Below the pieces are notes generated by a model. The model did no database searches. It was not told where the DNA came from and saw only the letters and a program-made list of their open reading frames with translations. A DNA stretch of 64,000 nt from a virus, in the IMG/VR virus record IMGVR_UViG_3300046542_000291, positions 177,641-241,640 of that record. One strand, given 5' to 3'. The first letter of the stretch is position 1. Every line of letters starts with the position of its first letter. This document shows, in pieces, positions 28,244-57,756 of the stretch. Both the position numbers and the translations under genes were made by a program.

Positions 28244-28780
28244 CTAGACGACATGTTCCATTTCACGGATGTCGCCAGTTTCCATCAGACGGGGGTCACC
28301 ATCTTCAAGGTAGCGGGCCCAACCGTTTACATCAAGTACTTCCACGGTAATTTCAACTTCACCGTAGTAAGCGTAACTACCCATGAGCGCCTTCAATGTG
28401 TATTTGAAGGATGTGTCACGGCTGTTGATCACAACGTTGGAAAATGACAGGTCATCTGGACCGAAGTGCATATTCCGAGAACGATTGATCTCTTTGGCAA
28501 TCGTAGCGGGGGTAGGCAAGCCTGTTACCCGGATAATTGCATCACGACCAATGGGTGTCAACTGGAGGTCCAGTCGCCGATAGACGTATGGGAATTTACG
28601 CCCTGTCTTTCGGTTGGTCATCTCAATGAAAGTACGCCCAGGAACAGCTGGCAGAGGAGCGAAGAACATATCGTCAAAATTGACGTAGTCTTCCTCAATA
28701 CCCTCCATCGGCATTTCTTCTTGAGCAAGTCGTACGAGTGCCGCGCGAGACGGCATGTCATACGGAAAGCGATCATTCAT
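28244..28780 (-). CDS. Unknown protein with EDG-type C-terminus
   Basis: 178 residues. The body is beta-rich and unassigned. The C-terminus (RYLEDGDPRLMETGDIREME) is a short E-D-G/E-T-G repeat often seen at the ends of phage proteins and resembling the open frame after the capsid gene. It sits between the endolysin and the holin candidate, ten bases from the endolysin. Position suggests lysis or tail, but the sequence does not decide. Confidence 0.55.
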   Translation of the reverse strand: MNDRFPYDMPSRAALVRLAQEEMPMEGIEEDYVNFDDMFFAPLPAVPGRTFIEMTNRKTGRKFPYVYRRLDLQLTPIGRDAIIRVTGLPTPATIAKEINRSRNMHFGPDDLSFSNVVINSRDTSFKYTLKALMGSYAYYGEVEITVEVLDVNGWARYLEDGDPRLMETGDIREMEHVV

Positions 28781-55318: not shown

Positions 55319-55405
55319 TGGAATAGTCCTGTTGATTAATTTGGGTATAGTTTCTATTACTGTTGTAATATAGATCTAAGATTTTTTAGAGTAAAAAGAA
55401 AAGCG
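55319..55405. promoter_or_regulatory. AT-rich region downstream of capsid operon
   Basis: About 87 bases between the capsid terminator and the 211-residue gene on the minus strand, with long A/T stretches (TAATATAGATC, TTTTTTAGAG on the plus strand). It probably holds the minus-strand promoter for the RNAP-fragment operon. No consensus box was found. Confidence 0.35.
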
Positions 55406-55436
55406 GCATAAAGCCTCCCCGAAGGGAGGCAGTATG
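55406..55436. terminator. Terminator hairpin after the major capsid gene, CATAA/TATG family
   Basis: GCGGCATAAA, stem GCCTCCC-CGAA-GGGAGGC, AGTATG. On the minus strand the stem is followed by TTTATGCCGC then CTTTTCTTTTT. It lies two bases after the second stop codon of the capsid reading frame. Confidence 0.85.
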
Positions 55437-55437
55437 T

Positions 55438-55524
55438 TTAAGGCTCTAGGTACCGATTGGTGGTACCGTCTTCCAGGGTCCGGTATGTCCCGTCTTCTAG
55501 TCGACGGCCATCTCCCGGATTCCT
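55438..55524 (-). other. In-frame open extension beyond the capsid stop codon
   Basis: After the capsid UGA (55525-55527) the same frame stays open for 28 codons to a UAA at 55438-55440. It encodes RNPGDGRRLEDGTYR followed by TLEDGTTNRYLEP, with two LEDGT units. It has no ATG, GTG or TTG start in frame. It could be a readthrough tail, the remnant of a longer capsid, or chance. Openness over 28 codons alone is not significant; the EDG repeat is what makes it notable. Confidence 0.4.
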
Positions 55525-57756
55525 TCAAGCACCCAAGGCGTCGATCACTGGTTTGTTCCAGGTCGATTTGCCCATCACTTCTTCCAGACCGGTGATGGTC
55601 AGGTTGATAGCGAACGGGATGTTGTTCACGTGCAGGTTGAACGGAACGGCCGCGATTTCGCGAGTAACCTGGTTGCCGCCACGAGAGATCGGCAGGTCAG
55701 CGATTACGGTCGATACGTAGAAGAACTGACCGAAGGACAGGATGTCGTTTTCGGTTGGGTTCTTACGAGTAGGAACAACCACCAGCTTGCCGTCGAACAG
55801 CTCGTTGTTGGTAGTTACCAGATCGTATTCCAGGATTGCGCCCAGAGTACGGTCGTCGCCTTGGGTCATCAGGTAGTTACCGATTTCTTTGTCGGTAGCG
55901 AAGATGAACATCGGCTTCTCGTCCTGGTTACCCGAGATCACGCGGAAGGCCGCTTCGATGTTCGAGTCACGGTAGGCAGGGAACAGGATGCCTTTGGTGT
56001 AGTTCAGGATGGTGGAGCAAACGTCCTGCCATTTGTCCTGAGACTTCAGGTTGTCGATGTGATCCGGCAGGTGAAGAGTACCTTCACGGTAGGTCGGACG
56101 CATCATGATGCTCAGAGCACCTTCAACCTGGTTGAACTTCGGACGATCAACGCCCTGGGTCACGGTTTCTTTCAGCTGTGCCAGGTAGTTCAGCAGACGC
56201 TTAACGGCGTTGTTGCTGTTCCGGATGTTCGTGTTGACGGTCAACGCCTTCACGATATCGCCAGGACCGGTGTCTTCCATGGTGCTCAGCGGCAGGGTAA
56301 CCGGGCTGTGCATCGGGATTGGGTGACGGAACTGGATGGCACGGGTCTGCAGCAGGTGACCACGCTGACGACGGTTGGTGTTGGTGAAGCGGACGTCGAG
56401 GTCGAAACCAACAACTTCCAGATCGCCAATGGCGTCGACAATGGTCTTACCATCACCTTGGGTGAGGGAGATCAGTTTGCGGTCTTCATCGACGATACGG
56501 TCGATTTCGATACCACTCACGCCGTAACGTGCGTCGCCTTTCGAAGTCGATACGTGACCGTTGAACGCAACGCTGATGCGTGCGGTCCACTTACGGTTGA
56601 TCAGCTCTTGCATCTGAGCGGATACCGAGTTGTCGATGGCTTTGGTTTCTGCACCGACCAGCAGGTCTTCGGAAACGAAGTCCAGCTTAGCGATACGGGT
56701 GTCGCCGATCAGGCCAGGTTGGAACACTGCGGTTGGCAGGCGGTCAACTTGGAACTTGATGATCTTACCGTCGAACTTGACGTACAGAGCTTTCAGGCGG
56801 CCACTCGGGTCGATGGTGTCGGAAACGTCCAGCATGCCTTTCTGCACGAGCAGGTTGGCGTTGGAGTTACCCATCAGGTCGATCTTCTTACCGGGCTTCA
56901 GCGGGCCGGTAGTGAACGACATGTTTTGTTCGTTGGTCACGGTGTAGTGCGGAACTACGGCCGAGGAAACGAAGAAGTCCAGGTTGGAACCGTCTGGATC
57001 GACCGCAGGAATCAGGTCGGTGCAGTTGTCGTCCAGGATGGACGGGTCACGGTAGGCTTCTACCATGTTCACTTCTTCGCTGGACATCTTCTGGCCGCTG
57101 ACGGCGTGGTAGACGTCTTTCATGACGGCGATGTACGGCAGTACCTGAACAACACCACCTTCAACTGGGTTGATGACGGTAGTTGGGTACAGACGTTCAG
57201 CGAACTCGTCCTGGCGGGAAGCTTCCAGGTTGTAACCAACGGTCACGACGCGGAAGTCGCGCTGCGATTTTTCGTTGTAGTTTTCCAGACCGGTGAACTG
57301 ACCGTCTTGGAATACCTGCAGGTTACCAGCAGGGCCGTTGAACTGGTGTTGCACGTGCTTGACGTTCGGATCGCTGTTGTCGAAGCTTTCTTTCGAAACT
57401 TGACGCAGGCCCTTGACGTAAGTCGGGAAGTCAGCCATGGCGATGGCGGACATGGCAGCGGCGCGCTGTTGGTTGACAGTGATGTGCTGACGGCCGGTTT
57501 CGGTGATGTGCTCGAAACCGTAGTTCGCCAGGAGCTTGCCCATGTCGTTGTAGATGTTGCCGGCAGTGATCAGCTTGTCTTCGGAGATGTTACCGAAGTT
57601 TTCCATGCTGAGGTGCGAGACCAGGGCCTTGCCCTTGTCCAGGATGTTGTCGGCGAAGTCTTCGTCTTTCTTCAGAGCGCCGAGGAAGTCTTCCATGCTG
57701 AAACGAGTGTAGGTCTTCTCAGCATTGTGTTTGAACAGCTTGTCAAGTTGGGACAT
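55525..57756 (-). CDS. Major capsid protein
   Basis: 743 residues, about the size of the phiKZ major capsid protein. The first 123 residues are helical, with acidic and SMEDF/SMENF segments, and look like a cleaved propeptide. An SKE triplet at 121-123 followed by SF matches the S/A/G-x-E processing pattern. The rest is rich in Val, Thr and Asp with no membrane segment. AAGGAACG precedes the start. Codon choice is strongly biased (GC-rich third positions), as in highly expressed phage genes. The identification rests on size, composition, position and synteny. Confidence 0.75.
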   Translation of the reverse strand: MSQLDKLFKHNAEKTYTRFSMEDFLGALKKDEDFADNILDKGKALVSHLSMENFGNISEDKLITAGNIYNDMGKLLANYGFEHITETGRQHITVNQQRAAAMSAIAMADFPTYVKGLRQVSKESFDNSDPNVKHVQHQFNGPAGNLQVFQDGQFTGLENYNEKSQRDFRVVTVGYNLEASRQDEFAERLYPTTVINPVEGGVVQVLPYIAVMKDVYHAVSGQKMSSEEVNMVEAYRDPSILDDNCTDLIPAVDPDGSNLDFFVSSAVVPHYTVTNEQNMSFTTGPLKPGKKIDLMGNSNANLLVQKGMLDVSDTIDPSGRLKALYVKFDGKIIKFQVDRLPTAVFQPGLIGDTRIAKLDFVSEDLLVGAETKAIDNSVSAQMQELINRKWTARISVAFNGHVSTSKGDARYGVSGIEIDRIVDEDRKLISLTQGDGKTIVDAIGDLEVVGFDLDVRFTNTNRRQRGHLLQTRAIQFRHPIPMHSPVTLPLSTMEDTGPGDIVKALTVNTNIRNSNNAVKRLLNYLAQLKETVTQGVDRPKFNQVEGALSIMMRPTYREGTLHLPDHIDNLKSQDKWQDVCSTILNYTKGILFPAYRDSNIEAAFRVISGNQDEKPMFIFATDKEIGNYLMTQGDDRTLGAILEYDLVTTNNELFDGKLVVVPTRKNPTENDILSFGQFFYVSTVIADLPISRGGNQVTREIAAVPFNLHVNNIPFAINLTITGLEEVMGKSTWNKPVIDALGA

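Follow-up and report, generated by a model that had tools for sequence, protein, structure and literature searches.

A conserved LEDG-repeat tail behind the capsid UGA codon of phiKZ-like jumbo phages and its probable expression by stop-codon readthrough

In this work we describe a conserved extension of the reading frame behind the stop codon of the major capsid gene in a phiKZ-like, Pseudomonas-type jumbo phage. The stretch of DNA that was analysed (the window) comprises 64,000 nucleotides of a 310,396-base virus record, IMGVR_UViG_3300046542_000291, and its capsid gene, a homologue of phiKZ gp120, ends on the minus strand with ...GGT GCT TGA. Beyond this stop the same frame stays open for 28 codons, as far as a TAA, and encodes a short peptide built of LEDG repeats; an earlier note, made from the letters of the window, had given this arrangement with the correct coordinates and sequence. 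We consider it probable, at roughly 0.85, that programmed readthrough of the UGA yields a minor capsid subunit with a C-terminal LEDG tag. The window capsid protein belongs to the Pfam family PhiKZ_MCP (PF25620; 744 bits against a cut-off of 27, residues 95-729) and matches phrog_3231 (major head protein); it is 82% identical to the capsid protein of Pseudomonas phage Psa21 and 63% identical to phiKZ gp120.

A conserved coding tail behind the capsid gene

Each of the 22 distinct members of one capsid clade, the window among them, has a UGA codon and an in-frame LEDG tail of 24-30 codons behind its capsid gene; several of the genomes compared are metagenomic. The tail-bearing relatives have 48-82% capsid identity. 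They include phiKZ, PhiPA3, 201phi2-1, Phabio, Psa21, Viktualia and HPP-Temi, together with further IMG/VR contigs (to 54% identity) and Noxifer (48%). Between its two stops, the tail reads AGKGYRYLENGTIRYLEDGNARKLEE in phiKZ, AGKGTLRYMENGNVRYLEDGVARRLDTPVI in PhiPA3 and TGKGGFRYMEDGTTVRYEESGIARRLER in 201phi2-1. The tail is rich in K and R. The earlier note had proposed comparing this interval in relatives, and had named unconserved EDG codons, frameshifts or stops as signs against a functional tail. The opposite was found, in that the open frame and the EDG-like motifs, like the UGA itself, are kept in every member, and in none is the tail fused to the capsid protein or lost. In the capsid tree, the 22 tail-bearing genes form a single clade with 100/100 support, and the capsid genes of the nearest outgroups (contigs L052, L054, L057, L058 and L062) end in UAA and have no tail. 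Within the phiKZ species, 47 records share at least 99.3% identity over the region. The differences inspected in five of these records comprise one synonymous change in the second-last capsid codon, one synonymous change in the tail and a third change, to a stop at the last tail codon, which leaves the tail with the ending ...LE that many relatives have. A scan of genome contigs found no relatives.

The tail also evolves as a coding sequence. Its substitutions fall mostly at third codon positions, and the comparison of nonsynonymous with synonymous change that the earlier note had suggested gave a ratio (pN/pS) of 0.45-0.48. In terms of protein similarity, the tail frame scored well above shuffled alignment columns (z = 4.5 for near relatives, 6.4 for far relatives and 7.5 for all), and none of the 1000-2000 shuffles made for each set matched the observed score. 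Furthermore, the tail frame is free of stops in all 21 aligned tails, whereas the two alternative frames contain 25 and 23. In-frame ATG, GTG and TTG codons are absent from the window tail, as the earlier note had said, and none occurs in 14 of the 22 tails; no start lies at a shared position. As the tail has a net zero frame, a simple frameshift cannot produce it, and it thus differs from extensions of the T7 10A/10B type, which lie in the -1 or +1 frame.

This arrangement appears to be peculiar to the capsid gene. When post-stop extensions were compared genome-wide between the window genome and Psa21, phiKZ and PhiPA3, with the cases classed by inspection, no long gene other than the capsid gene had a conserved extension that lacks a start. 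The other high-scoring cases were short, probably spurious, open reading frames (ORFs) or downstream genes with starts of their own. A genome-wide reassignment of UGA was also considered and rejected, because many long ORFs end in UGA and the conserved extension occurs at the capsid gene only.

A stem-loop downstream of the UGA

The codons of the tail can themselves pair to form a stem-loop. Its base, GGG:CCC, is possible in both the near and the far group of relatives and begins 8 nucleotides past the UGA; readthrough structures usually start at about this distance from the stop codon (PMC3542737), and a 3' RNA structure is common but not universal in readthrough. In the far group (10 sequences), five of the 12 outer helix pairs are changed on both sides, and the whole structure contains 15 double-change cells, compared with 5.8 +/- 2.0 in shuffled alignments (0 of 500 reached the observed value). 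When the pairing was slid by 1-3 columns, every measure dropped. Compensatory changes in the hairpin were seen in the group of phiKZ, PhiPA3 and 201phi2-1. The near group, to which the window belongs, keeps the pairing in 97% of cells. Shuffling of synonymous codons inside each tail weakens the fold (mean z of -1.28, against -0.24 +/- 0.30 in homologous windows of the capsid gene). A search of Rfam gave no match at threshold, and the pattern UGA-N8-GGG-N6-CCG has scattered matches elsewhere in ten genomes. The capsid locus combines three features of readthrough: in-frame coding beyond the stop, one and the same stop codon in all bearers and a 3' structure about 8 nucleotides past it.

Proposed readthrough and its alternatives

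We propose that most ribosomes would terminate at the UGA and release the ordinary capsid protein, and that a small fraction would decode the UGA by a near-cognate host tRNA, most likely tRNA-Trp. These ribosomes would then read the 28 extra codons and so place the LEDG-repeat tag at the capsid C-terminus. The stem-loop made by the tail codons would hinder termination and set the ratio of the two products, and the tagged subunits would co-assemble into the head as a minor form. The terminator lies after the tail, and so the capsid mRNA should include it. The window genome carries tRNA genes for Tyr, Asp, Asn and Trp(CCA) at L027:9269-14153 (G000:C1:49269-54153); a tRNA-Trp gene is present in Psa21 too, and none is found in phiKZ or PhiPA3, so that in those two phages a host tRNA must suffice. 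A phage-encoded suppressor tRNA was considered and rejected as not required, since phiKZ and PhiPA3 have no tRNA-Trp; that of the window genome (with its CCA anticodon, G24 and a 5-base-pair anticodon stem) looks ordinary.

Several points weigh against programmed readthrough. The case for it is drawn from sequence comparison. All tail-bearing genes belong to one clade, so that the invariant UGA is, as judged from the tree, one origin followed by long retention. The base after the UGA is variable among the 22 genes (A in 15, G in six and C in one), the triplets that follow being AGG, AGT, AAG, ACT, GCT, GAT, GAC and others, and the eukaryotic type II contexts UGA-CGG and UGA-CUA occur in none of the 22. 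The capsid signal is thus, by analogy, one that would work like type II readthrough but that we do not class as a member. In the window, only two of the three GGG/CCC pairs at the base of the hairpin are intact, and the near group, including the window, is too invariant to show covariation in the hairpin. Finally, the stability of the hairpin is unremarkable when codons are resampled with the usage of the capsid gene; the structure is therefore backed by covariation and not by raw stability.

The tail might instead be a separate micro-protein, made by reinitiation after the capsid stop or from a non-standard start. Many members have a purine-rich, Shine-Dalgarno-like AAGGA or AAAGGG just past the UGA, the repeat of the tail is complete in itself, and the outgroup contig L053 has an in-frame ATG three codons past its own capsid UGA. 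However, where an ATG, GTG or TTG does occur in the tails its position varies (codons 9, 16, 20, 21, 22 and 29), no near-cognate start is shared by every tail, and separate translation would not account for a tail that in every case starts in the capsid frame right after the stop. We regard this explanation as improbable. A conserved hairpin near a terminator could also mean that the constraint acts on the RNA or DNA only, as a processing site or as a hairpin associated with RNA stability or the terminator, and that the tail is untranslated. This seems very improbable, as the coding signature is restricted to one frame, which is open in all members, the amino-acid motifs are preserved through synonymous change, and the same peptide repeat is translated at the end of gp143, a second virion protein.

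In the capsid tree the tail arises only once, and gp143 still has the repeat in frame; both would suit a decaying tail left over from a longer ancestor of the capsid protein, and a remnant was one of two readings offered by the earlier note. Neither the frame nor the UGA of a remnant would persist over such divergence, and all 22 lineages retain both along with the EDG-like motifs, with none fused and none decayed. We have rejected the remnant because of this conservation throughout the clade, and would leave it only a very slender chance; the other reading in the note, a live minor capsid form, is favoured. In bacterial selenocysteine genes, a UGA is accompanied by a hairpin within the downstream reading frame. 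The capsid UGA and its hairpin share this layout, and the hairpin might accordingly be taken for a bacterial selenocysteine insertion sequence (SECIS) element, but it covers most of the tail and has a variable apex, it has no Rfam match above threshold, and a capsid extension has no redox role. Selenocysteine is hence the explanation to which we give the least credence.

The LEDG tag, related systems and neighbouring features

The LEDG repeat is not confined to the capsid gene. The earlier note had remarked on a likeness between the tail and the end of the window homologue of phiKZ gp143 (Table 1), and this likeness is real, as the same LEDG repeats are found in both. The window homologue ends ...ARYLEDGDPRLMETGDIREMEHVV, phiKZ gp143 ends ...IRLLENGAARYLENGQIRYLES, and the family members of PhiPA3 and Psa21 end ...ARVLEDGTFRYTEDGNLRELEH and ...ARYLEDGDPRLMETGDIRELEHA, respectively. 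The gp143 family (phrog_2935) thus carries C-terminal LEDG repeats within the same phages but, in contrast to the capsid gene, no stop codon separates the repeat from the rest of the protein, and every copy bears it; family searches place gp143 and the capsid protein in different families. Two virion proteins of one phage apparently bear the same kind of tag, gp143 always and the capsid protein only after readthrough. Its likeliest role would be that of a small module for binding or display on the head, which the capsid protein would have in common with gp143. We would give about even odds to a more specific proposal, that in phiKZ-like nucleus-forming phages hairpin-stimulated readthrough equips a set minority of the capsid subunits with an LEDG docking tag and brings a partner shared with gp143 to the head.

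The maturation protease of phiKZ cleaves after S/A/G-X-E (PMC5694885). By inspection, the phiKZ tail contains no such site, and so the tail should survive head maturation. In the distantly related phage phiKp24, C-terminal loops of the capsid protein line a pore at the centre of the hexamer (PMC9700779), and the tag may therefore be displayed there. A comparison of the LEDG repeats with the PDB gave no convincing match, and the predicted structure of the capsid protein with its tail was unusable (mean predicted local distance difference test score, pLDDT, of 45). The chain of phiKZ gp120 in PDB entry 8y6v has 747 residues, which is the length of the unextended protein, and every annotation of phiKZ gp120 that we have seen lacks the tail and ends the protein at the UGA.

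The A1 protein of Q-beta is a readthrough extension of a coat protein. Coat-protein readthrough domains are likewise made by luteo-, polero-, enamo- and furoviruses, and the type II signal consists of a UGA with an extended stem-loop (PMC3542737, PMC9553062). As in these RNA viruses, a minor extended coat protein would be expected here; however, the capsid case concerns a double-stranded DNA (dsDNA) tailed phage on bacterial ribosomes and is known so far from its sequences only, and the phage tail is far shorter (24-30 codons), itself forms the hairpin and lacks UGA-CGG or UGA-CUA. In T7 gene 10A/10B, and in other capsid or tail proteins of tailed phages, extensions arise by frameshifting and are often immunoglobulin-like (Ig-like) (PMC5009743). 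T7 resembles the proposed case in that one gene gives two major capsid forms, the minor one being extended at its C-terminus, but it uses a -1 or +1 frameshift, whereas the phiKZ-like tail follows a UGA without any shift of frame and is a short repeat with no Ig-like domain (contig L053 is an exception).

A full-text search of open-licence papers, subscription literature being outside its scope, found no earlier report of a capsid readthrough tail. If correct, this would be, within the literature searched, the first programmed stop-codon readthrough in the major capsid gene of a dsDNA tailed phage, and would extend coat-gene readthrough from RNA viruses to such phages. Among nucleus-forming jumbo phages, phiKZ and PhiPA3 serve as models, and the capsid protein of each has so far been treated as a single product; a conserved second form would be an uncounted component of the virion and a ready site for tagging. 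Furthermore, the short and genetically simple signal (a UGA, 8 nucleotides and a hairpin) would be well suited to the study of readthrough on bacterial ribosomes.

Table 1. Capsid locus and gp143 homologue in the window (positions are those of the window)
Feature	Position	Strand	Basis
Major capsid protein gene, phiKZ gp120 homologue, 743 codons + UGA	55525..57756	-	Pfam, phrog, identity
UGA, proposed readthrough site	55525..55527	-	UGA in 22/22 tail-bearing capsid genes
Interval of 8 nucleotides between UGA and stem-loop	55517..55524	-	Alignments, columns 4-11
Conserved LEDG-repeat tail, 28 codons, RNPGDGRRLEDGTYRTLEDGTTNRYLEP	55441..55524	-	Open in capsid frame, coding score
Stem-loop in tail RNA	55458..55516	-	GGG 55514-55516 with CC(C) 55458-55460; CCGTC 55503-55507 with GACGG 55466-55470
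TAA ending the extended frame	55438..55440	-	Sequence
Terminator hairpin 3' of tail	55413..55430	-	Sequence; same motif after tail in relatives
phiKZ gp143 homologue, virion protein	28244..28780	-	phrog_2935, head and packaging; LEDG repeats at C-terminus without stop

The terminator-like hairpin that follows the tail recurs, nearly identical (GCCTCCC-TTCG-GGGAGGC followed by CTTTATGCCG), at about 20 places across the record, the window copy being one of them, and a similar motif lies 3' of the capsid gene in relatives. This recurrent hairpin has no long T run, and may be a terminator for a phage RNA polymerase. The earlier note had placed the TAA two bases before the terminator; it lies 7 bases before the GC-rich hairpin, and the shorter distance holds only if the hairpin is loosely extended. 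A motif close to AGATCTATATTAC, which is probably a phage promoter, is located between the terminator and the next gene (window 55340-55400), and is found in most close relatives too.

Other open frames were seen behind capsid stops. In the outgroup contig L053, 203 codons are open in frame right behind the capsid UGA (L053:3266-3877) and encode a Big_2 Ig-like domain (37 bits against a cut-off of 22.8). This contig belongs to the tailless clade, and its nearest sisters end in UAA without an extension; it may represent a second, parallel readthrough extension, or reinitiation at the ATG three codons in. Phage Goslar has 28 open codons past its capsid UGA (L067:2953-3033), reading TTVAASLDDILDDNVADGFIAPDIHPAP, which were found in no other phage record, and behind the capsid UGA of FLC9 and Haymo the frame is open for 18 and 16 codons, respectively. 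A Big_2 Ig-like domain (28.7 bits) also occurs in the genome of the window phage itself, in a 187-codon open frame at G000:C1:78852-79040 (locus L119).
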